Positions 1 to 53,879 of a stretch of DNA of 64,000 nucleotides are shown here, in pieces. Numbering within the stretch: the first letter of the stretch is position 1; each line of letters opens with the position of its first letter. The stretch spans positions 4,455,803 to 4,519,802 of the forward strand of contig NC_087380.1 of assembly GCF_963675165.1 (NCBI RefSeq), in the 5' to 3' direction. This DNA comes from Halichondria panicea. Lineage: Eukaryota > Porifera > Demospongiae > Suberitida > Halichondriidae. The translations under genes were made by a program, and so were the position numbers. The notes beneath the pieces were generated by a model. That model made no database searches, was not told where the DNA came from, and was given only the letters and a program-made list of their open reading frames with translations.

Positions 1-230
1 GCATCTTCTGTCTGCCCTTGAAAAACGCAAAATTGCACCTCACAAAAATTTCCCGCTGTACGGTATGTGTATGTTGTACTCGCTAATCTACTAGATCTAC
101 CTACACGTAAAGAATGAGTGGTTAGTTAGCTGCTTTTTGCTTGCGGCCAATTATAACAGCTTATGCTGTAGTTGTATGCGTGCATTTTGTACATGTACAC
201 TATTATATAGTAAAATTCTCTCTTTTTCAG

Positions 231-3200
231 ACCTACCAGTGATTGTCAGTGGCAATCGCTTAGCTTGTTTTGAACCTCAAGAAAAAGTGTGGAAAGGTGA
301 AGCTGGGCAGGCATTCAGTCTGGCTAGCCTTATTGACCAGTCATCTGATTTTATCACCCCACTCAATGGCTTGGCGGGCTTCGATAAAGAATCGGCCCGA
401 TATTCACACACTATCTTTCGACTGCCATTACGCACAAAAGCATCCAGTCTCTCAGACAATATATACAACACTCAAAAGCTACAAGTGCTCCTCGATGCTC
501 TTAGAGAGGAGGCCAAGTATTTGCTTTTGTTTCTGAAGTCAGTATGCAAGATCCAAGTAGTGCATATCTCACAGAGTGGTCAGCACAGCACATCCTTCTG
601 TGTGGAAATAGCTCCAGCTAGTCTAGCATCAGTTAATTCCAAGCGTAAATTGTTCATGCATCAGCTTCGGCAAGCTCATTCTCAACAGCCTTATTCAATT
701 TCTCAAATATTTTCGTTCACAGCTACCTTCTCTGTAATTGTGACTGACAACAATCATAGGAAGAACCAAGCTGGCCAGAGCAATTGGGTGATAGCTAACA
801 GCGTCGGATCAGGGAACTCTACAGTACAAGCAGCTGCAGCCAAACAGCGTACATTTCCTTGGGTCGGTACAGTTTTGGAGCTAGGTGCTAGTTCTGTTGG
901 GGGTCGGATATTTTGTTTCCTTCCTATGCCAGTGGAGGCTACGTCTGGACTACCGGTTCATGTCAATGGAACATTTGGGCTGAACGACGAGCGACGTACT
1001 CTAAAGTGGCCAGGAATTGAGAGAAGAAACGATCCTACAGCAAATTGGAACAAGATTCTCGTTAGTCAGCTCCTCCCACCTTGTTATGCTATGCTTCTAG
1101 TAGAGGCTAAAAAACACATTTCTCATGATCAGTTCTACAATGCCTGGCCTGATGTGAATACTGTAAACAACCAGTTTTCTGAGATTCTCCATCCTTTGTT
1201 CATTGCATTGTTTCAGCAAGCAGTTGTTTATACTGAGAAGATAGAAGCGCTTCAAGTTGTGGGGAACTGGATCGTCATCTCTCAAGCAACCTTCATCAGT
1301 GAAAGCAGCAAGCTTCCCTCCATTATGAAACGAGTTCTCGCTGATTGTGCTGTACAACTAGTCACAGTCCCTTCAAGAATATGGAGAGCAATGTGTCACG
1401 CTAAAGTCGGTGTCACAGAGATGTCTCCAATGCTAGCTCGCTCCAAATTTCGCAACTACCCTCAATGTTATTCTAGCATTGACCCTATTGGCAAGATGGT
1501 AATTTTAACATACTGTCTTTCTGACAGTTGCTACAACGATCTAAGAGGATTGAATCTTCTGCCCTTAGCAAATGGTAGCTTCATTAACTTTGATGCAACT
1601 TCCAGACAGCAGACAGTTTTCCTTTGCTCAGATGATTGTCCACGATCCTTGCTCCCTAACTTGGATCGCTTACTTGTCTATTCATCAGATGATACAAAGC
1701 TTCAACAAAGTCTATATTCTGTGGCTATTAGTCAACAGACAAAGCTCCGACTCCTCACTGAGAAAGAGGTTGCTCACCTCCTTCCCCAGGCTCTACCCTC
1801 AAGTAGAAACAGTCTAGTGTCCATGCCCCACTCTCAGATTCCCTCCACTTGGCTTCAGACGTTCTGGAATTGGTTGCACAAAAAAAATCTACAACATTTT
1901 GTTGGTCAGCTTGTGGTTCCTTGCTACATCTCTACCTCCAGCTCAAAAATAAATTTTCACCTTGCTCCTCTTCATAGTACACAAGCTGTGATTTATGTCG
2001 ACACATCTTGCTCTGGAAATTTGCTCTCTGCTCTCTACAAAATGAAAATCAAGGTTTGTCTACGAAGTGAATTCAGCTATGTACACCATAGGCAACTTTC
2101 ATCAAACGTAAAGATGCTCGACACAAACAACTTATTGGATGCCATAGCATCAACATCAAATTACAAAGGAGTTGCTTTCACAGCTCAGGAAGCTGATAGC
2201 ATGAGAATGTTTCTCCTATCTAGCACTTACACTCCTTCTATGGTGAGAAAGAAGGTCTTAAAAAACATTCGCATCTTTTCATCTGCTTCAAACTCATCCG
2301 ATGAACTGTTTTCTGTTAACACAGCAGAATCAAAATCAGTAACACAGCAGGCAATAGGAGAACCTAACAAATGTGCTTTCAATGTTGCAAACCTGCCTTC
2401 AAACCTAATTATTTTGTCCCGGGAAAACCATTATCAGCTACAGCTATTGCAATCTCTAAGCATTCCATTTGTATCTGATTTCAGACTTCTTGTCAATCAT
2501 GTGTTCCCGCTCATTAATAACAGGACTTTTCCTGACCATCTCATTGACAAGCTAATGCCGGAAGTGTTGGACATGTTCCAAGTCCTCAACTCCAGAGAGT
2601 ACAATATGGCCAGTTACCTTCAGAGCTTGCAATTCGTAAAAACAAGTAATGGACGAAAGACTCCTTCTGAACTATTCACTCCTTTTGATGCTGATATTTC
2701 GGCTCTGTATAGCGGAGAAGATGTATTCCCTCAGGCTCCTTACAATACGAATGGAAGAGTTCAAACTTTACAAACCTGTGGTCTCTGTGTCGCAGTCACC
2801 CCACAACGAGTCCTTGACATTATCTACTCCATTAGTTGTTCTTGCAGCTCATATCCGCAACGTGTTGACAGCTTAAAGCTGAGCCGGGCCAAGGCAGTGC
2901 TTAAATACATAAGCACATCTACTTTTTATAACCAAACAGGTGGAAGGTATGTAGTAGCTAATGATCATTATCAAAGCTATACCTTCTCGACTGCTCTCAA
3001 GTATCTAGCTACTAACCGGAGCTGGCTCCCAATTCTCAGTGATAAGCCGTCCAGTTATCCTGAAGAGATTTCATGGAAAGGACACGGCCTCAACTCACAT
3101 TTTATCTCTCTGAACAATTCAATGGTTTTGTCACCTTCAACGAAAAACACTATTCCCTGCCTAGTGGGCTCACAGGTCTACATTGTGTGCCCTGCGGTTG

Positions 3201-6200
3201 CCGATCTAATTGCCAACATGTTACCAGCTGACTCTAACAGTTTCTCACAGAATGTGGTCGCTCACTATAAAGAGATACTCTTACACAAGGATCAACTCTC
3301 TGCTGATGTTATGAACTCGCTTGTTCTTCAAGTGTATGACTACATGAATAGTCGAGGTATCTCCTATCTTGCTTCGTTGTATTCTACCACAGAATGGATT
3401 TATATCAAGAAAGAGAGGAAGTTTATAGCACCAGATGTAGTAGCTTTTAAGCTAAACTCCACCTTCAAGAGTGATCTTGAACCGTACATCTACATTCTAC
3501 CCGACATTCTGTCTCAATACTCAACACTTTTTGGCTCAGCTTCTAGAGTCGCAACGACTGTTAGTCAAGCCCAGATCGTTTCCATTCTCAAAATGATCAA
3601 GGACGATGTACAAACTAATGCTATTGAACAATCGGATGCTTGGAGTATGATCATGAACATTCTAAACTGGCTCACAAACAATGGAAATAAGAAAGTTCCT
3701 GACGAAGTCATGCCAGAAGATGTTCTGATACCAGTAGAGACTGAGTCTGAATTGCCTCAGCTAGTTCAGGCTTCGGAGGTTGTGTACACGGACAATGAGT
3801 TCCTCAAGGATTACCTGCAATCGTCAGAAGAAAAGGACTCCTACCAATTTGTGCATAGCCACATCTCTGCTAGCATGGCACATAACCTTGGTGCAGTTCC
3901 ATTGTCAGAGTTTTTGGATATTTCTGAGGACACTTTTGAAGATGCTGGTCAACACGAACCACTCACCACTCGATTGAAGAATATCCTCCGAGACTACAAA
4001 GATGGACTCACTATTATCAAGGAACTACTGCAGAATGCTGATGATGCAGAGGCTACGGAAGTGAACATTTGCTATGACACTAGGCAGCATGAAACAAATC
4101 CAAAGAAACTGTTTTTCTCAGGAATGGCAGAAGCTCATGGTCCTGCGTTAATTGTTCATAACAACAAGAGTTTTTCTGAAGATGATTTTACTAACATCAC
4201 AAAGTTAGCTGGAGCAACCAAGGCCAACAAAGTGTTAAAGATTGGCAAGTTTGGAATTGGTTTTTGTTCAGTATACCACATGACAGATGTACCGTCATTT
4301 GTTAGTCGAGACAAACTATATATCTTTGATCCAACACTATCCTACCTAAGAAAAGAGATAAAGAATTTTTCTCAGCCAGGCAAGAAAATTCTTTTCACGA
4401 GTAAGTTCATTGCGAATTCGCGTCAGCTCTCACCTTATGATGGCTTGTTTGGATTTGATCGATCTGATTACGAAGGGACAATATTTAGGCTTCCATTCAG
4501 GATACACCCTAGTGAGCTTAGTTCTACCTGCTATTCAAATTTAATAGTCCAGGAACTTATATCTGCTATTAAGAACAGTAGCTCAACTCTATTACTTTTT
4601 CTACAGCACGTGAGAACTATTACATTCCAAACGATCAGTCATGGACAAAGCACGCCAGAGATTTTGTTGAAGATCACTCGAAAGTGTATTGAAGCACCAA
4701 TTCGACTCCGTGCGGGTACTGAGATTAGAGAACTAACTTGCTTCGATTCTCTCTCTAATGAATCAAACAGCTGTCATTGGCTGGTATCACAAGAAAGTGA
4801 GACTGATTACTCCCAACAATACTTCACTGCATCAGTCTCCTGCCCATTGGGCGCTCCTGGTAGCTACAGTGTGGATGCAGAATTCCAAGGAGAGATATTT
4901 TGTTTCCTACCCCTCTCTCAGAAGACTGGCCTACCAGTGCATTTAAGTAGCAACTTTGCTGTGATCAATAATCGCAGGGGGATCTGGACCTCAGATGAAG
5001 CCACCTCACTTACAGACAGAGAAGTCATTTGGAATGTTTCACTAATGCAAGGGGTCATTCCAAGAGCTTACTTTGCACATATACTAGCTCTAAAGGACTT
5101 AATGAATAATGGAGATGTAGCCGAATATATTTTTCATTGTTTATGGCCTGATAAAGACATGCTAACTCAGCACAATCCTTGGGAGCATATGATTGACACA
5201 CTCTACTCTTTGATGTCTAAGGGACAGGTCTTCTATTCTGCATGCGATAATCAATGGCTGTATTTGACTGACAGTAAATTCCTTGAGCCCAAAATTCTCT
5301 GTCTTTCAACAGACTCATCCACTCCTATGTGTGTATTGAAAATTGTTGAGCATCTAAAAGTGCCTGTAGTGGATCTACCGCAAAACTATCACATATTTTT
5401 CGATCTTGATGGTTACACTGTGGGTGAGAAAGAATTTATCGACCTTTTCTTTCGAAACATTGACAGTCTAGCATCAATCTTTACTGAGAGGAATAAAGCC
5501 ATCCAGTACATGTTAGAGCAGTACATGGCGAACATCGATAGACCAGGTGGTAGTAACGTGGAATATTTCTTCAAGACTATCCCATCGATTCCGTGCTGTC
5601 CACATGGAGAGGTTTTGCGTTTGTGCAATGAGATTATCGATCCAAAATCCAAGTTTGCTGATCTGTTTGACGAATCTGAGGCTCGTTTTCCTGTGGATAT
5701 GCTCATACATAGAGAACTATCTTCTGCAGGTCTAAAGAAGCTCGGAATGCTAAACAATATTCTCCCATGGAACATGCTTTTGGAACGTGCAACTTCTGTG
5801 CCAACACTGTACCAGATCAGTCCAACGAGAGCAATGACAAGAACCCATTTAGTCATTTCTGCAAGTACAGCTTCTACAGAAGCGGGTGACATTGGTCTGT
5901 CTAAGATCCCCTTTCTTCCTGTGCTAACTAAGGCACCTGACTACCTTCTTCCATGGAAAGGGGCTATACAGCATCAACTTATGTGCGGTGAAGATCTTAT
6001 GATTCCGTTTGTTAAACCCTCAGATAACATCAATGTGGAGGTGTCAGGGTCGCAAGCCACATTTGTAAACAATTCCTCCGTAGAGGATGGTGGATGTGGA
6101 CCAATAGATGAAGATGCTATTCAGCTGCTAGGAATAAGAAGTGCTCCAACCTTTGAGGAGGTTGTCTTGCAGCTCAAGAAATTGATTGAACTGTTTTCAT

Positions 6201-9200
6201 TACAAGAATGCACAACGAAACTAATTCAACTGACAGATAAAATGTGCCGTAGAATATATGAGTTCTTTAATAGTATCCTGGTTAACGCTGATAATACTGA
6301 TGTTCAGAGCTTACGAGAACTGGCATGCATTTGGACAGGAAAACAATTCATCACTGTCAGTGTTGTTGCTACAAAATGGACTTTGAATGGACCCTATCTA
6401 TACCCTCTACCGTCTAGCCTCTCATTTCGCAGATATCTCACCAAGCATCTGAATATAAAAGAGGAATTCACCATTTCAGATATTCAGATTGCTCTTGCTA
6501 AAATAAAGGAACAATTTGGCAGTGAGCCAATCAGTGAGGAATGTCAGAAGGTGTTCAATCAACTGCTTCCCCTGCTTGTAAGCAGTGATGCTCCTAAGGA
6601 TACATCAATCGTGCTTCCTGATGAGAACTACGTCATGCATCCTGCTAGCGAATTGTCCTTCAATGATGCTCCGTGGGCCCCAAAGGAGACTAAGTACACT
6701 TATGTACACGGGAATTTAGCAAGACATGTAGCTACAAAATTTGGAGTGGTCCCTATAAGAACACAATTTCTTGAAAGATTTTCTACAACTGCCAAAACGC
6801 ATTTCAACGGCACTCCTTTTGGTCAGCATGAGGAACTTACACGCAGGATCCAAAACATTTTGGAAGGCTATCCTTTTGATATAACAGTCCTGAAAGAGTT
6901 ACTACAGAATGCTGATGATGCAAAGGCAACTAAAATGTATGTCATTTTGGATAAGAGGACTCACGGTGCAGAAGGTATCTTATCAGAAGAATGGGGCAAG
7001 CTTCAGGGACCAGCTCTTTTGGTTTGGAATGATAGTGAATTTTCAGAGAAGGACCTAGAAGGTATCCAGCAACTTGGCCTAGGTAGCAAGAGATCTGATG
7101 ATGAGACAATTGGTCAGTATGGCATCGGTTTCAATGTAGTTTACCATCTCACTGATTGTCCAAGTTTTATCACTGGAGGAGAAACCATTTGTATACTGGA
7201 TCCACACTGCCACTATGTTCCAGGAGCAAATGCAAGTGATCCTGGAAGAAGGTTTGACAATTTGGTTAAAGATGGGTTCTGGGACACATTCAAAGATATG
7301 AAGAGTGCTTACCTCAAGAGTAGGTTGGAAAATTGCCCGCCAGAGCTACAAAAAGGTGGATCTTTGTTTCGTTTTCCTCTCAGACACACCCCTGAGCTGG
7401 TTGCAATGTCAAAGATCCTAAAAAAGGATGAATTCACAAATCCAAAGTCTCTAAAAGCAGATGATATGCATTCTAATCTCAAAGACTGGGCTCCTGACAT
7501 GAAAGAAGCTATGCTTTTCCTCAACCACGTCACAGAACTTCGTTTCTTTGTCATAGAAGAGAAATCTCACACAATGGTCACATTGAGCAACTATCGCACA
7601 ACGGTAAATCAATGTGCCCAAGTCTCTCGTGTTCAGCTCCATGATGCACTCTCAACCTTTAAAAAAGATAGTGGCACCAAACCCACCGTGGTACGCTATC
7701 CTATTACTATTTCCACGGTCACACACAAGAGGGGAGGGGCTGAGCAACACGTAAAAGAGAATTGGCTGATACAACAAGGCGTTGGAGATATTGAAAATGA
7801 AAATCAAACATGGAAATACATTAGTAACATAAAGCCACGACACGGTATTGCAGCTCCTATTCAGCTTCCACCACATGAATCCAGTGAAACAACAATCCCA
7901 AGAAAAATGTCAGTCTCTGGCAAAGTATTTTGTTTTCTCCCTTTGCCAGTATATTCAAATCTACCCGTACATATCAATGGGCACTTCGTCCTCGATTCCA
8001 ATCGTAGAGACTTGTGGCACTCAACAGATTCGTGCCATGAAGATGACAAAGCAGCATGGAACAGAAAAATATTTGAAGCCATAGCCTCATCTTATGCTAA
8101 CCTTCTTGAGCATGCTCAGCAATACTACATAACTAAAGATGTTTTCAAGTCAATTCACGATGCTTTTGATTCTCTCAACAATTACTACAGTATATTCCCT
8201 CACCCTTCCTTTGATAAGTTGGAAAAACGTTACCTATTGTTAGCGGAGAGTGTGTATACCAAGTTCGTTATTCATAACTCCTCTGTACTGTCTGTTGTGT
8301 GCAATTCTGAGACCGCTGAAACCAAGGCAGTAAAGATTAATTGGTGTCCTATCAAAAGTGAGTTATCTTCCACCCAAGTTTACTTTTGGTCGCCTACTTC
8401 ATATGTGGAGGGGGTACCAGATTATGAGAGGAAGTCCATTAGGCCTTTACTTGAAGCCATTGGCATGCAGCTCACCGCAGCACCATCAAGGCTGCAACGT
8501 CATCTAAACAAGACTATCGGTGATAAGGTAGCAAAACTACAAGAAACCAACCCTGGCTCAGTTTATGCTTACTACCAGAAGTTTAACGTGCAAGCAATCA
8601 AAACTGGAACAGGTGTATTCCCCTGTGCTATTGACTGTACTATTTTTAAACGAGCAGAAGTGTTTAGACGATTCACAGACTATTTGCTTCAGGCACCAAA
8701 GGAAAAAGACACAAAGATAACTGGATGGGTATTTCCAGACAACAATCCTTATGGGTATCCTCTTCTTCTTACAGCTGATAGTATTCTTAGAAACTTTGAT
8801 AAGCATGATAAAGTGCTAAGATCGGAATTTTCTGGTCTGTTTAAAACAATGCAGCACCTGTTCATACACCCAAAGCTACTTAAAGCAGAATATAGTAGTG
8901 CATATTTTGCTGAAAGCTCTGACTATGAACAGCTCGTCAGTACAATTTTATCTACTGAGCTTCCACCTGAACTACAAGCGTCTAGAGTACAAAATTTTGA
9001 TCGGTACTTGTCTGAAAACCGATTAAAAGCACTGTGGAAATGTTTTTCTTGTGATGTTGCGTTTAGAGAAAAACTGGACATAGTGTTAAAACGATGGGCA
9101 TTAATCCCAACCAATGGAGGCCACCTGTATTCAATCTCAAGCAAGGTGCTTCCTGTGTATCCTCTATCAGTAGCGTCAGCTGGGAGAGAAAAACCAGCCA

Positions 9201-12200
9201 TCACTTCAGCTGAAGAGTCTCAACTGTACCATGTACTTTCTACCCTTCAAATGCCCTTCATTGCACTACCATTGGGTGTTTCTCTTCCGTGTCCTCACTT
9301 AAAAGATCGTAAAGCTATTCTCAAAAACTTGTATTTCCTTAGCCAGGAAGTATCCTTATCAAAACTACTCACCAAAGAAATGGTGGAAGTCATATTTGAC
9401 TTTGCTAAAACAGTGGACTTTAGAAGTGATCCGGAGAGTCTCAATTACATCAAGTCCCTTCCTTTATTTGAGAATGTTGATGGAGAATTCAGTACTGTTC
9501 AAGGAAAAACAGTGTTTAAGTGGAACATGTCTGCAAGTGCTGTCGGGTACAAAAAGTGGATTAAACACTGTGATGTCATATTTCTTCATTGTTTTGGTGC
9601 ATGGACTGCTATTGGCTCAGCACAGTTGGCAATCAACAGCATTACTGGTGAAAAAATTTATTCGCAGTATATATTTAAATTCTTTGATTCTTTGAATGAA
9701 GCAGAGCGGTATGAACACCTCGAGCACATCAGGGATGTTCTCTTCCGAACAAACAAAGCAAACTCTCAAGAACATATGTACAAGAGAAAAGAAACCCGGC
9801 AGTGTTATTTTACAGCAAGAACATTTATTAATTTGTTGGAAGACCTTCCATGTATCAGTGAAGGTGATGATGAACCATTGAGACCAGTTAGAGACTTTTG
9901 TGATCATACCTTACCGATCTTCACAGCTTTTCGAAAGACCTACAGATTTCTTCCAGCATTATTTACTAGTAATTCCCAGGTGTGGAGCAAATGGAAGCAC
10001 TTTTTTCAACAGCTACATCTTAGACAGACCCTCACGAAGGAAGAGTTTGTCTCTCTGTGTCAACTCACTGCTGAGAGCCATGACGATCCGAAAATTGCAT
10101 CTCAAGTTTTACTTGAGCATTACTTTTCTGTTGAGGTTGCCGAGAAGGGCTGGACCAACGACCTTCATTTCAATAAGCAAGTATCAAATATTGCCTTTGT
10201 ACCAGCTCAACAGTTACCACAACTGAGCTGGATCAAATCCCCCTTCCGATTTGCTAATCCTGGTCGATGTATTTATAAGAGAGATGGAGAAGTGGTGGAG
10301 CTAACAAAGTTGAATGGTGCAGCTATGCTTGGTCATGATCATGAACACTGCTTGTGGACAATCATGCCCATTGTGTCATTGCCAATCCACTACTTTTCAC
10401 ACAGGACCTATCTTTATCAATTAGGTGTCACAATTGAACCCACCATAGAACAAGTGGTGAGCAATCTCAAGAATATATCTTCAATGGCAAAGTTCACAGA
10501 CTTAAAACTCTTTGATAACTATCCTGCTGCAAACAAGCCACCCGAAGATGGTACTACATGTACAACTGTGATGAAAGTAATTAAGTGCCACTTCACATTC
10601 TTGCAAAACAACTTGTCTTTACTGTCAACAAATCATTTGACGCAGTTAAAGAACATCCCGTGCATCCCTGTTCCCAGTACTGCTAATAAGGATAACACAC
10701 AGAGTTGGCAGGTTGTACTAGTGAAACCTTGCTATGTCCTCAGTTGTACGGTTCAAGGTCTCCACCCATTCCTGCATTCTGCTCCAAGTGAGCTCAACCC
10801 AGCATTCTTGGGCCTCTTACAGAGCATTGGAGTTTGTAATAGTATGGGTATCGAACATTGTCAACTTGTTCTAGAGACAGCCTACAAGCAATCACAAAGA
10901 CAGAAACTCGATGAAAATACAGAAGCATGTGTTGTTCAGGCACTAAAATGTCTCTATAAGTTTTTAACTGGATCAAATCATGCAGAAGAACTTACACCAC
11001 TGTATCTTCCATCGAGTGAGGGTACATTAGTACTTTCCACAGAAATGTTGTATGCAGACAATTCAAGTTTCTTTGGTCACGTTATGAAAACAAAAGTAGA
11101 GAACACAGGGTATTCCCTAATCTACTTTCCAAAAACCCATTATGATTTCACAGAAAACCAATTTTGTGACTCACTTCCAAAACTAGTAAGACCCGAAGGT
11201 ATGTCTGAAGTATGTGAAAAAAAAATTCTTCCAGAATTTGAACACCCCATAGAACCTAATGAAGTTCATAAAAATTTGGAGAGAACACTCTGTATGAAGA
11301 ATGAGCTGCCAAGAGTGCTAAATGTTGTTGTGAAACATGCAGCAACAGGTAAGGTTGAGGATTTTGTTGATGTTTTCACAGAATTTGTGGCAAGTATTGA
11401 TGTAGTCACAGTTAAGCGGGTACGGACTCTCATTACTTTCAGAGAAACCGGTGTACAACTTGGACAGCTTGATTTATCTTTCCATCTGCAACATGTGCAG
11501 AAGGATTCTAATGAGCGACTGTGCTTGTACATTGAGTCCAACATTGATCCAGTTATTGGTACTGATAACATCATCAGAGCACTTTCAAAGATGCTAATAA
11601 AAATCATTAAACAACATGACCCAAAAGTAGGTGATCATTCTTCCTCAGAGATGGCCACAATATTCACTTCACTTTTGAGGCTTCAAACTCCTGCCCACTT
11701 GTACAGTGTTCTCAAGCGAGAGGGTATTCTATACACTGCCAAAGATAGCAACATTCAAATCGAAAAACCTTCTAATGAGCTTGGCAAGGAAATTCCTACA
11801 GAGTGGCACCATCGACTAGACCAAGCTATTGACAATGTGTTTCATCCTGGAGAGCTTGTCGGCTACGAAGATAGTGATGATCACATCATATTTGCACGAA
11901 TTATGCACCCTCTACTTCCTAAAGAAGGAAATCTTGATTCTGTACATCGTATTGACATGAGATACAGGATCTACACAAGCCCAACGGATGATGAAGGAAT
12001 TGAAGTGGGAATTCTTGAGCTGTACAAATTTTTGAGGGGGCTGAAACGTACAAAACAAGTTAACGAAGATGAAAAAAATGTGGTACCGTTTGAAGGAGAA
12101 ACTGAGCCAATTCGACTACATAGAATTTTCCAAGAGAAAGATTTGGAAGAAGTTATTAGTGATCTTAAAAAACAATTGGATGATATTTGGAGGCTGTCAG

Positions 12201-13015
12201 AGGAGGATCGGCGAAAGGCTATCAAGCGTCTGTACCTCAAGTGGCATCCAGACAAGAATCCGAACAACCAAGATTTTGCTGAAAAGGTTTTTAAATTTCT
12301 CAATTCTGAAATTGAGGTGCGGAATACTGGAAGGTTTCATAGAGATGATCTTAATGAGACTGCTAGAAGGCACAGATATAATTTCCACAGAGAACGTCAC
12401 TACTACACGTACACACGCACTCAATACGAGTACCCTTCCTCCAGTAGGGATGAACGTGGAGCAAGTAGTTCTTCATCTTCGAGACCAGATAGGGAATTTG
12501 GAAGCTCTGGATGGGGGACGGCACCACAGCATGAGTCTGATCCATTTGGTGAGGAGAATGTACGACCTCAACCTAAACCTGATGAAGGAAAACGTTGGCT
12601 CAAACAAGCTGAAGCTAATTTTGACTCGCTCCAGGGTCTGTTCGACATTGCAAGAAACAAGTCTCAATTGTGTGGAGACGTATGCTTTATTGCTCACCAA
12701 GTAGCAGAGAAAGCTCTCAAAGGAGGCAAGTACTTTGTGTGTGGGTTAGACGATAACGCTCTTACTACCCACAATATCAGTACTCATGCACACGGGCTAC
12801 AGTCTGAACGTCCTGGAGAGACGCATGGACTAGTCAATCACACAACCCCCTTGGAGAGCTACTACCTTGAACCAAGATACCCCAATCGCTGGCCATCCGG
12901 TATTGTACCAGCTGATATGTACAACTATGAGCAAGCCAAACAAGCCAAGGATCATGCCGAGGCTATACTGAGAATTATCAAGAACATTATAGAGTGTAGG
13001 GAACCAGAGGATTAA
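231..13015 (+). CDS. SACS: Sacsin (SACS), giant terminal exon; 5' end outside window
   Basis: Sacsin is a very large cytosolic co-chaperone; in vertebrates it acts in mitochondrial and intermediate-filament homeostasis. The window enters inside the first ATP-binding repeat: a polypyrimidine tract and CAG end at 230, and coding starts in the codon that straddles the junction. About 4,261 residues follow with no intron. Counting from the exon start, a second GHKL-type repeat has its N-box ELLQNADD near residue 1265 and a GIGF box some 80 residues on. A third has the same N-box near 2223 and its own GIGF. A J domain with HPD at 4006-4008 comes next. A HEPN domain from about 4120 ends the protein. 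Human sacsin has 4,579 residues with the same order (ubiquitin-like, three repeats, J, HEPN), so only roughly 300 residues are missing. The 93 bases of open frame before 230 are intron. Stop TAA at 13013. Confidence 0.96.
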
Positions 13016-44200: not shown

Positions 44201-47200
44201 GAAACCTAGGTGTAGTTATTGGAACGCATGCAATGCAGTGCAGGCTGAAATTTGAAAACCATCCCAACGAAAATTACCCGCTATACGTCATTCTCGGAAG
44301 AATCCAACCCGGTCCAAAACAATAGATGTGTGATTATAATTATAGGGTGAGAAACGCCAGGTTTATGACGAGAACATACGTGTGCCACTGATAGTGCGCG
44401 GACCAGGGATTGCACCTAACACAGTTACAGAAGCACTGGCTCTCAACATTGATATGGTGGGTATTTAGTGAGTTATAGTGTGCACGTTATATAAAGTGGG
44501 GGCATGATGGTTGTTTACAATGTATAATTCATTCCAAATAAGTGACTCAATGTGTTCCCAGCAATACTATGTTGCTTCTGAACATGTAGGCACCAACGTT
44601 CATTGATTTCGCTGGCCTGCCAATTCCTGACAGCATGGATGGGGTCTCTCTAAAAGAAACACTCGAGGGAGGGAAAATTGAGGTAATATTATCCTACATG
44701 CAGGCAGTAGTGCTTGTTTTGTTTGCAACCTCAAATACAAGCATCCATGACCATTCCCAAAATTGACTTGATATTATATGCCTCTGTTACGCTAGCCTCG
44801 ATCCCAGGCCGCACTTCCTCCAAGAGTGGGCCTGGTATCAACTGCTTGAGCATGCGCTAATACCCCCCCGGTATCTGGGGGCTTATGGATAACATCGTAT
44901 ATGCTCAGTAAACAATGACATCACAACAAACGGAAGTGGATTGAAGGAAGTAGATAGAAAGTTTGCTTGAAGGTTTCTAGCCCATCGGATAGCATTCTCT
45001 GATAGCTACCCTTAGCCTGCTATGTTAATAAAAGACTCACACCTGCAACAGTGTGAATGACAATCGTCTGAACGGAGTGAAAGCTGACAAGAGCCTATAT
45101 AGATAAGCCACACCCATTGTTTGAACCCTTTCTCGGTATAGATAAATAGTTAGCTAAGTGATACTAGACAGGCTAGATCTAAATAGAAACAGGTTCTATT
45201 CCGCTATATGCAATTGAAATACTGTAGCTAAGCTATAGCAAGCATTCATGCAAATTGACTTCACTATTGCTGTGCCAACAATTCTTAGGTAGAGAGCAAA
45301 GTGAGTACAAAATGGCTGCAGGAGCACAAAATACAGTGATGGAGGCCCTGGGTGGGGCTCACATGAACAAAGAGAGGAAATGTTAACAATAGTGAGGCTA
45401 AATGCTAGAGTCCAAAAGTACAACTTGACAGCAGCAAATTATGGTTTAAATTGTAGTAAATATTACGTAATAAGGTATAACATGTATGCACCAACACCTA
45501 ACTTGCGGGGAAAGTCTACTATACTAATGCTTTCTATTAGAAAGGAAATAGTTGTACAACAACCCTACAGCTTTGTCTGTAGCTAGCTAGCTATAATAAT
45601 AATTATATGACTTTTGGATATTAAATATGAATATGATTAATTCATATAGGAAATTTAGGGGAAAAAATATCCAATAATTTTGCACATGCGCAAGCAGTTG
45701 ATAGCAGGCCTTCTTTTAAATTCTCTTGAAAGCCGGTGAAGGAGGCTACTGTTACGCATGTGCTCAAGCTCGTGTGTGATTTGATTTGTGGATATTCAAA
45801 CTAAAAGCTAGTGTGATTACTGAAAGCTATTGAATTCAGACACTCTGTGCGTACCAAAATCTCTACTTAGTACTTATCTCTGATACTGCAGCAAACGTTC
45901 CACTAGCTGTCAAAGCCATAATAATAATTATTGCACCAATTGTTGCATCAATGTTGCCCATTCCTCCTTAGTCTATCACGTGTTGATATTATGGGCTTTG
46001 AGCTTTGACATTCTTTTTAGCAACAACAATCTTGGTCGATCATTTCCCACTCTTTTTGCATAATTCCTGCAATCCTTGTATCTTATCAGTGCACTGGAAT
46101 GTGCATGCAGGGGAGTTTCTCTAATTACAGGAAATTCTGCAATGTGCACCCAGTTTCCAAACGACTACAACCCGAAAGTGAGGTAGATTTCCTCTCGGGC
46201 TCGATCTCTCTAGACAATTCACCATAATTATTCATGTACGTGTAACTATTGCGCATGCGCAATAACGTTATACTGGGCGTGGCTGTTATGTTAATCTAGC
46301 TAGCAGTTCATTAAGTGCTAGTTCAGTGCAGCAGTTTTACTTTTGTTTTCAGCATGCAGATATCCATTCTAAGGTATGCACTGATCACCACAGGACCAAT
46401 AATTAAAACCTTGTAGCGTGCACTTGAATTAATTAGGACTGTGCCATTTGGCTTTAGTTGATTGTGTGGTACATAGCATAATTATAGCATTGTCATATAT
46501 ACATCCACGACTTAATTGGCGATTCATTGCATGCATGCTTCTTGATACCTCCCGTTTTTCTTTTTTCAGGACTCTTACAACTTTGCTGTGGAATACTTTG
46601 GAGAAGGTTCACCATTTGGACATGACGTTTTTTATACTGGACCAAATATTCCTTTTATTCATGGTGAAGTATATTTTGCCGTTCTTATTACACGTACATG
46701 TATACACATTCACCTTTTGATACTGGTACAGATTGTACTAACAATACTTGGTATGCCATTCGTTCCTTCTCCACAATTGGGTCAGCCAAGAAGTATGACA
46801 CCACTCTGTCTCACTACTACATTAAAGGTGGGTTTGAAATGTTGTGTGTCCAACATCTATAAAATGCGGTGTGACGTTATCGCTGCACAATGTGTAATGT
46901 TATACCTGTTTCATAGATTCATTGTTACCACCTGATGAAAGAGATGATCTCTATTTTACTGAAATGTATGATCTTACAGAGGTAAGGAATTACATGTAAA
47001 CTTTGTTCATTTACAGTTGCAAGTGTCTGTATGCCAACATTTTCAATTGTCACTTGTGTACGTGTTAGGATCCTTGGCAGTTAAACAACCTCAAGAATGG
47101 CGATCTCAGTCAGGATTTAACAATGATGCTCAGTAAGATGAATACCCACCTCAACAAACTTGCTAAATGCTCCGGTAGGGACTGCCGAGAGTTGAGAGTC

Positions 47201-48426: not shown

Positions 48427-48534
48427 ATTCGTGGACTTCCAATATTAATTAATTAAAGGTAAACATAATTTTGTCTTGTGTTAACGTTACTAAAGAAAAA
48501 TCAGACTGGGGATACCAGCTCTAATATTATAGTA

Positions 48535-49148
48535 GCCTCGATCCCAGCCTAGACTCGCAAGCCACTCCCTTTTCTCTGATCGGACGGGGGGCGGGCAGAG
48601 GAGGCTGGAACCACTTAACCTTAGCTAATTAAGGTCACTAATTGGATTTATCCAAACTTCTTTTGCAGACTACTTCAAGCCTAGTTTTTAGTGTGTATCA
48701 GTTTAAAACGTTATTTTTCAGGGGGGGTCAAATCTTATTTTCGCCAATTTTGCTCAGAAGCAGAGATACAATCAAAAGTCTTTCTCTTGTACTAGCCTCG
48801 ATATCATGAGCGGCTTGTTCTCGAGGTCACTGCATTGCTGGCTTTGAGACTTGTATCTCTGCTTCTGAGCAAAATTGGCGAAAATAAAATTTGACCCCCC
48901 CTGAAAAATAACGTTTTAAACTGATAGACACTAAAAATTAGGCTTGAAGTAGTCTGCAAGAGAAGTTTGGATAAATCCAATTAGTGACCTTAATTAGCTA
49001 AGGTTAAGTGGTTCCAGCCTCCTCTGGGGGGCGGGAGTCCAATCAGAGAAAAGGGAGTGGCTTGCGAGTCTAATCCCAGCCCCTCACTACTTTCTCTGGG
49101 GTCTTTCTGGGGTCTTTCTCAATTGAGAGCGGCCTGGAATCGAGGCTA
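48535..49148. mobile_element. 614-bp TAGCCTCGAT foldback with 9-bp target duplication
   Basis: TAGCCTCGATCCCAG and CTGGAATCGAGGCTA ends. Arms of over 200 bases are near-perfect (for example GGTTAAGTGGTTCCAGCCTC against GAGGCTGGAACCACTTAACC). Flanks are ATATTATAG and ATACTATAG, eight of nine identical. Confidence 0.87.
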
Positions 49149-49415
49149 ATACTATAGATGCATGGGTCATGAATAATTCATTAGATAATGAGCTGCTCTC
49201 TTGCACCAAGCCATAACATCTAGGAACCAGAAAATGCTCACTACAAATGATACTTGTCCTAGGGGTTCGTCACACTCCCACAATATGTTAATGTCCTAAT
49301 AACTCGCGTGCCACCACTCACGCATGTACTATTTCTATGGGGGGTGATCAGTGCCAAAACCTCCATTATTTAGTACTAAAATTATTTGCATGGTAAAGTT
49401 CTATATACAAATGAC

Positions 49416-49455
49416 TAGCCTCGAATCCACGCCGATTAACGTGGATTCGAGGCTA
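49416..49455. mobile_element. 40-bp miniature foldback with exact 9-bp target duplication
   Basis: TAGCCTCGAATCCACG and CGTGGATTCGAGGCTA are 16-base perfect inverted arms around an 8-base loop. ACAAATGAC sits directly on both sides (49407-49415, 49456-49464). Confidence 0.88.
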
Positions 49456-49792
49456 ACAAATGACATGTTCTGCATGGAGTTCTATACAAATGATATACTC
49501 TCATTTGCATGGTGAAGTTCAACATACAAATGACACGCTCTCTCTTATTTGCATGGTGATTTTCTACATACGAATGAAAGTTCTACATACAAATAACGCT
49601 GCATGGCAAATGATAAGCTTTGTTAGTTTTACAATGACACTCTTACATATTTGCATTGACTTGAAACCACTCCTTTTTTCATCTAAGGAAGGGCTTGGAT
49701 GAAAAAGGGAAGGTTGGAATACAATTAGAACAAACCACTACATAATGTGTGGGTGATTATTAGTATAATATACCACGTGCAGAAACGTAATT

Positions 49793-53460: not shown

Positions 53461-53557
53461 TAGCCTCGGTCCCAGGCCGATTTTTTTTAATAGAACGATG
53501 TTGAAAAAAGGCGACCTAGCCTTCAATTGGAGACGGATCGGCCTGGAGTCGAGGCTA
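53461..53557. mobile_element. 97-bp TAGCCTCGG foldback, degenerate 9-bp duplication
   Basis: TAGCCTCGGTCCCAGGCCGA and CGGCCTGGAGTCGAGGCTA are inverted. Flanks ATCTATGTC and GCCTATGTC agree at seven of nine. It appears inserted at the end of a truncated AGTTGGGC-type element (53558-53823). Confidence 0.78.
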
Positions 53558-53834: not shown

Positions 53835-53879
53835 TAGCCTAGATTCCAGGCCGCTCTCAATTGACTGGGATCGAGGCTA
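53835..53879. mobile_element. 45-bp miniature foldback with exact 9-bp target duplication
   Basis: Starts TAGCCTAGATTCCAGGCC, ends GGGATCGAGGCTA. ATCTGATCG flanks both sides (53826-53834, 53880-53888). The two ends match the two ends of the 614-bp element at 48535, so it is an internal-deletion derivative. It sits 95 bases upstream of the RNF17-like start. Confidence 0.85.

Follow-up and report, generated by a model that had tools for sequence, protein, structure and literature searches.

A 40-bp palindrome in the genome of the sponge Halichondria panicea belongs to a family of hundreds of very short, TAGCC-ended insertions that consist of little more than their terminal inverted repeats (TIRs) and that lie between 9-bp target duplications differing from site to site. 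The reading that we favor, and consider likely, is that of a non-autonomous, TIR-only family whose complete tiny form is 58 bp, which would be inserted by the AcademH-like machinery of larger TAGCC-ended transposons and of which the 40-bp copy would be a secondary derivative. Positions below refer to the window, that is, the whole stretch of 64,000 nucleotides that was analyzed (positions 4,455,803 to 4,519,802 of NC_087380.1), and locus handles (L) refer to regions fetched from the same genome.

The 40-bp Element and Its Surroundings

The element and its flanks comprise the following features.

49416..49455, no strand assigned: 40-bp TIR-only element, both ends TAGCCTCGAATCCACG
49416..49431, + strand: left arm, 16 bases, of an inverted pair with 100% complementarity
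49440..49455, − strand: right arm, 16 bases, partner of the left arm in the inverted pair
49407..49415, + strand: left flank, one of two copies of the 9-bp duplication ACAAATGAC
49456..49464, + strand: right flank, the other copy of ACAAATGAC
49498..49560, + strand: adjoining local repeat unit, used as the empty-site reference

An earlier, sequence-only reading had described two 16-base arms around an 8-base loop between exact 9-bp flanks, and all of this is confirmed: the arms are complementary at 16 of 16 bases, the loop occupies 49432-49439, and ACAAATGAC is read on both sides. As single-stranded DNA, the element folds into a full hairpin (−18.9 kcal/mol, z −9.9), a stability that 0 of 200 shuffled sequences equaled. 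The flanks are part of a degenerate local tandem repeat with a third ACAAATGAC at 49526, so that a 9-mer match on its own counts for less than it would seem to. The duplication is nonetheless real, because the site, when the element and one 9-mer are removed, aligns to the neighboring unit at 49498-49560, which has a single ACAAATGAC.

The window holds further TAGCC-ended elements and one foldback of a different kind.

48533..49148, no strand assigned: interrupted 84-bp TAGCC-ended element in two pieces, 48533-48549 and 49082-49148
48550..49072, no strand assigned: inner 523-bp foldback, a dispersed repeat with ends TAGACTCGCAAGCC and the 9-bp duplication ATCCCAGCC
53835..53879, no strand assigned: second tiny element, 45 bp, perfect duplication ATCTGATCG, one end base altered
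53461..53557, no strand assigned: TAGCC-ended relative of 97 bp, duplication copies differing at 2 positions
44793..45748, no strand assigned: 956-bp relative, perfect duplication CTGTTACGC; one TAGCC end exact, the other altered

The first two of these together make up what had been read as a 614-bp foldback with ends matching those of the 40-bp element. The match is confined to the outer end, TAGCCTCGA plus a few bases, and the foldback is a nested pair and not a longer form of the element. The interrupted 84-bp element has the outer duplication ATATTATAG/ATACTATAG (1 mismatch), relatives of it of 62-67 bp exist without the inner element (likeness judged by eye), and copies of the 523-bp inner foldback are dispersed in the genome. 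At 137-13015 the window also contains a 4292-aa open frame, which by eye we take to be sacsin-like, with what are presumably DnaJ-like and HEPN-like ends, judged by motifs.

A Dispersed Family with Duplications That Differ by Site

The genome searched comprises 131.5 Mb in 39 contigs. The pattern TAGCCTCGA-N(8-38)-TCGAGGCTA matches 726 loci of 26-56 bp with both ends exact, and the same ends with N(39-69) match 415 loci of 57-87 bp; the reversed-pattern control gave 0 matches in each case. Flanks were read at 132 tiny loci, and the merging of similar flanks reduced these to 82 sites. The 132 loci comprise 7 of the 20 in a set that includes L008-L020, the 50 first listed of the 726, 47 of 57 places with one arm type (of the other ten, one is the window copy and nine were already in the first two sets), 7 of the 20 in a set that includes L155 and L158, 20 picked by hand from the first 50 listed of the 415, and the window copy. 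The sample is thus not random: 70 loci (the 50 of 726 and the 20 of 415) all lie on contig C1, and most of the 20 were chosen for being 58 bp. All but 8 of the 132 (the window copy and the 7 of the L155/L158 set) came from searches that required both exact ends, so end loss is hardly detectable in this sample; at L158, bases are missing near one end. Left out were L008-L020 (13 loci), the tandem pair L155, and 12 other loci of the L155/L158 set, while L085 (87 bp, tandem-like) was retained. Merging was conservative, with some sites fused because of repeats that they share; in this way the count lost L103, which is a further, sixth instance of the commonest 58-mer and has a perfect duplication of its own.

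When the best member of each flank cluster is scored, 48 of the 82 flank-distinct sites show a duplication free of mismatches over 9 bp or more, and all 48 9-mers are different. The remaining 34 sites divide into 7 with one mismatch, 3 with 8 bp, and 24 that are worse. Shuffled pairing of flanks gave a mean of 0.55 perfect duplications with self-pairings included, which is about what self-pairing alone would yield. Target preference is weak and symmetrical, with G first in 25 and C last in 23 of the 48 9-mers. For a mobile element the sequence-only reading had anticipated many loci with different 9-mers, as opposed to a single locus or one 9-mer common to all, and the sites bear this out. The order target repeat/tiny element/target repeat/tiny element/target repeat is seen in tandem at L083:2550-2673 and L155:92-222, as from a second insertion or from slippage between duplications.

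Near-identical paralogues on contig C1 provide filled and empty versions of one site. In two of them a 58-mer stands between two copies of GTTAAAGGT; in four, GTTAAAGGT occurs once and the element is absent. When the filled version is emptied in silico, it differs from the empty paralogues by 2-3 mismatches in 424-428 columns, small indels aside, which points to the insertion, or the precise excision, of exactly 58 + 9 bp within a short time. The family thus shows the features by which MITEs are recognized, namely terminal inverted repeats, target duplications that differ by site, and filled and empty versions of a site, the last as paralogues and not as individuals. A large array on C1 at ~1.1-2.65 Mb (L022-L057 in part) consists of near-identical duplicated segments with identical tiny elements and is useful for comparisons of this kind.

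Longer Relatives Carry Helicase Remnants

The ends of the tiny elements are also found on longer ones. Elements of ~500-720 bp (L135-L139) and of 541-550 bp (L141, L142) share them, and their 9-bp duplications are perfect or contain a single mismatch. Those of 1.9-4.4 kb (L124-L127) have the same ends with the duplications GAAAAAATC (one duplicated site), GTCGGTTTG/GTCAGTTTG, and ATGCGCATG, and inside these TIR-bounded elements lie fragments of a RecQ-type helicase. The DEAD matches of the fragments in L124 and L126 score 24.7 and 24.9 bits (E 2e-5), just below the Pfam cut-off of 26 bits. Copies of the RecQ-type helicase exon are numerous in the genome, many of them with identical scores: a 60-residue query gave 150 scored matches of 502 candidates, a number that suggests one or more multicopy transposons bearing a helicase.

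A second helicase query returned 16 loci, and at 8 of these a TAGCC end, read by eye, lies upstream in the right orientation (L192, L196, L197, L198, L199, L201, L204, and L205; L206 was unclear and is excluded from the count). The helicase open reading frame (ORF) starts ~150-190 bases inside the end in L189, L190, and L196. The L196 helicase has DEAD, Helicase_C, and RecQ zinc-binding matches, all above cut-off, and for the L192 helicase the nearest solved structures are WRN and RecQ1. On the strand opposite the helicase is an ORF with a DUF6589 match (E 1e-21 to 1e-31 in four ORFs and 1e-6 in a fifth). A tblastn match to it at E 1e-6 or better is present at 13 of the 16 helicase loci, two weak, and the TIR-bounded L127 contains a fragment akin to the N-terminal part of this ORF (45% over 44 aa). 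Predicted structures for L205:26-745 and for the DUF6589 alignment were too poor to use (pLDDT 38.8 and 35.5), and we found no paper on DUF6589 in the open-access literature. Among the long elements and helicase loci read, we saw none that was intact and autonomous, having the two ORFs and the two ends together.

AcademH elements have 9- or 10-bp duplications and encode a helicase (PMC10045372). Both the tiny and the long TAGCC elements have duplications of 9 bp, in agreement with that description, and helicase sequence stands between TIRs in L124-L127, there as fragments; no intact gene between two ends was seen. Together, the RecQ-type helicase fragments between TIRs and the 9-bp duplications point to an AcademH-like element, and the larger TAGCC-ended transposons fit this description, with DUF6589 as the putative transposase.

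The 58-bp Unit and How It May Arise

Among the tiny elements, 58 bp is the mode. In a complete list of one arm type (57 places of 33-63 bp, counted by hand), 21 are exactly 58 bp, and the next size, 48 bp, has n = 6; 22 of the 50 places listed among the 415 (57-87 bp) are likewise exactly 58 bp by hand count. The merged sample has 29 of 82 sites of this length, a figure inflated by the preferential picking of 58-mers, so that 21 of 57 and 22 of 50 listed are the values free of selection for exact length. The 58-mer consists of the outer 29 bases of two terminal repeats placed head to head, each reading TAGCCTCGA, 7 variable bases, and CCGATTAAAATAC, the second in reverse, and it leaves almost no bases unpaired. 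Five flank-distinct sites hold one and the same 58-mer, and at 4 of them the duplications are perfect and differ from one another. Insertion as a TIR-only unit is therefore well supported at 58 bp, but movement at 40 bp is not.

Copies shorter than 58 bp lack part of the center, and their joins vary. Six loci share a 44-bp join and seven a 47-bp join, in both cases with differing arms (the flanks of L029 and L054, in the latter group, are alike). A whole 48-mer is present at two sites, L088 (duplication with 1 mismatch) and L110 (perfect duplication). These recurrent joins hint at movement, or at recurrent deletion, below 58 bp. The exact 40-mer has a single copy in the genome (all 72 matches of a pattern covering it were listed, from 57 places), and it equals the 44-mer L002 minus four bases. 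That the element had moved at its present size is thus no longer the best account: with a unique 40-mer and a commonest unit of 58 bp, loss of the center is the simpler history. Most likely, the 40-bp copy was inserted as a longer palindrome of up to 58 bp, and its center would have been lost at or after insertion.

In several arm-pair families, the 58-mer is joined at the point where GGCCTGG would follow in the long TIR. In L175 the join is at the same position despite a different inner sequence, and the outer 29 bases are identical in the TIR of L196. Five 58-mer arm pairs also occur in fetched long elements (L124/L125/L127, L135-L137, L139, L141, and L142). The tiny form therefore probably arose several times at one join position, which suggests a mechanical cause, and the recurrent join may mark a 29-base transposase footprint on the end. 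The presence of these arm pairs in long elements means that 58-mers may be made anew from long copies. Tests on single arms leave standing both this possibility and copying of the 58-mer itself: ends with the CCGCATT arm were as in the tiny form in 9 of 34 cases and as in the long form in 25 of 34, and the asymmetric arm pair AGACCACG/AATCCAGG is also present in the 541-bp element L141. The CACG arm was considered as the mark of a tiny-only lineage and rejected, as long elements carry it too.

In the mechanism that we propose, the family would consist of non-autonomous DNA transposons cut down to their terminal inverted repeats, with the 58-mer built head to head from the outer 29 bases of each repeat, left and right. 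The larger TAGCC-ended transposons, with their RecQ-type helicase and accompanying DUF6589 protein, would supply the insertion machinery, acting on the tiny copies and making the 9-bp duplication. Of the two readings that remain, our first choice is that the 58-mer is itself the donor and mobile unit. More tentatively, the two 29-base ends could be the whole of the mobile unit and, being too short to loop conventionally, could depend on extrusion as a cruciform or hairpin, with the RecQ-type helicase of the family itself opening the structure and the two ends thus coming to lie next to each other, or on stubs held by the transposase and glued by the cell. It is speculation that cruciform extrusion, perhaps aided by the helicase, brings the ends of the 58-bp duplex together.

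The second of the remaining readings, which we think rather improbable, would make the 58-mer a by-product of insertion that need not be mobile. Here, a transposase complex would hold the two cleaved ends of a long element; cutting or resection of the body would stop at the protected 29 bases; the stubs would be inserted with a 9-bp duplication; and the cell would seal the gap by end joining, with shorter copies as the result of trimmed inner ends. The constant join before GGCCTGG across arm-pair families and in L175 is what such a process would leave, as is the recurrence of five arm pairs in long elements, and there would be no need to bend a stiff 58-bp DNA to pair its own ends. By our own measure, 59 of 73 distinct TTAA-type sequences keep at most 30 TIR bases on either side, and the other 14 are, for the most part, over this limit by a base or two or are 47-mers, whose inner sequence is indistinguishable from that of the opposite arm. 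However, copying of the tiny form would equally lead one to expect an identical 58-mer at 5 sites and an identical 48-mer at 2, the arm pair of the 58-mer L174 (AGACCAGG twice) is absent among the fetched long elements, and we found no described example of such joining in the open-access literature.

An unlikely alternative is that long elements insert with their duplication and later shrink to their ends in place, by microhomology deletion or abortive gap repair. The 47-bp join agrees with this, as in our reading the long form has a short direct repeat at that point, and the recurrence of the 44- and 47-bp joins with differing arms would suit recurrent deletion. The filled/empty paralogue pair, on the other hand, leaves little time for two steps, and intermediate sizes are scarce, since among the 50 listed places 8 of the same TIR type exceed 58 bp and 2 exceed 64 bp (one of them tandem); both observations make collapse less likely. 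The 58-bp join is, moreover, the commonest despite what we read as a mere 2 bases of microhomology. Our preferred reading remains insertion of the 58-mer as such.

MULE Transposases and Hitch-Hiking

The sequence-only reading had taken the 9-bp duplication as the mark of a Mutator-like (MULE) mini-element. The duplications are indeed of the right length, but this is common to AcademH too, and the genome has 31 MULE transposase matches. We looked for a pair of TAGCC ends with a common duplication enclosing a MULE domain, and none was found in 9 of the 31 PF10551 regions read at 8 kb or in L074 read at 3.3 kb. The MULEs of L076 and L083 have other ends, CGCTGTGACTATTCTTACGG, with their own 9-bp duplications, and the long TAGCC-ended elements hold helicase fragments instead of a MULE domain. 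A Mutator origin of the tiny elements is, on these grounds, very improbable.

L076:1699-5398 and L083:2463-6216 represent a true MULE family with CGCTGTGACTATTCTTACGG ends, and TAGCC elements lie inside or beside them. In L080:2412-5285, an open frame of 958 aa includes a MULE domain and motifs that by eye resemble zinc fingers, and the 8 kb read there show no paired ends. A TAGCC end 1.6 kb after this ORF was considered as the terminus of the element and rejected, because the same end recurs elsewhere (L181), with outer flanks that are alike over ~90 bases, and because the search for a left end found none.

Segmental duplication or carriage inside other repeats does account for part of the family, in which one insertion is multiplied within larger duplicated repeats without movement of its own (in one fetched set, 13 of the 20 loci, L008-L020, have the tiny element, with one end altered, inside a larger repeat, and much of the C1 array at 1.1-2.65 Mb is of this kind), but as the explanation of the family as a whole it is refuted by the 82 flank-distinct sites and the 48 different perfect 9-mers that are left after shared flanks are merged, and we give it almost no credence.

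Comparison with Known Systems

Several mobile or transposon-derived short hairpins and remnants are known, among them mitochondrial GC clusters, double-hairpin elements, and the short IESs of Paramecium; these are organellar or excised remnants, unlike the nuclear TIR pairs with 9-bp duplications described here. The REP palindromes of bacteria are not known to have 9-bp duplications. REP sequences resemble the sponge elements as short dispersed palindromes linked to a transposase (PMC2817692, PMC3733652), of 20-40 bp according to PMC3733652. They are, however, bacterial, and the enzyme is a tyrosine transposase. Mutator/foldback elements such as Tm1 (PMC3169594) are also inverted-repeat elements with target duplications and are filed with Mutator; the sponge family differs in that no MULE gene with TAGCC ends was seen in the regions read here (10 of 31).

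In the open-access literature we found no report of TIR-only nuclear elements below 60 bp and none of a cargo-free route of transposition, whether by a cruciform or by joined stubs. Either of the two, if correct, would mean that transposition can proceed with no cargo DNA at all. Our results suggest that ~58 bp, possibly less, made up almost only of end sequences, suffices for insertion by a eukaryotic cut-and-paste system. As these palindromes are very short, hundreds of them could escape the usual repeat annotation.

The closest likeness in coding content is to the AcademH lineage of Academ DNA transposons (Kojima 2020, as related in PMC10045372 and PMC10799480), which has 9-bp duplications and a helicase between TIRs; the sponge family differs from the lineage as there described in having hundreds of derivatives of 58 bp or less. 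The closest likeness in form is to MITEs. Like them, the tiny elements are non-autonomous, with TIRs, target duplications, and a high copy number. MITEs are typically ~100-800 bp long. The sponge elements have almost no DNA between the repeats and thus represent a MITE-like family, of an otherwise known kind, reduced to its TIRs, for which we found no comparable nuclear element below 60 bp in the open-access literature.
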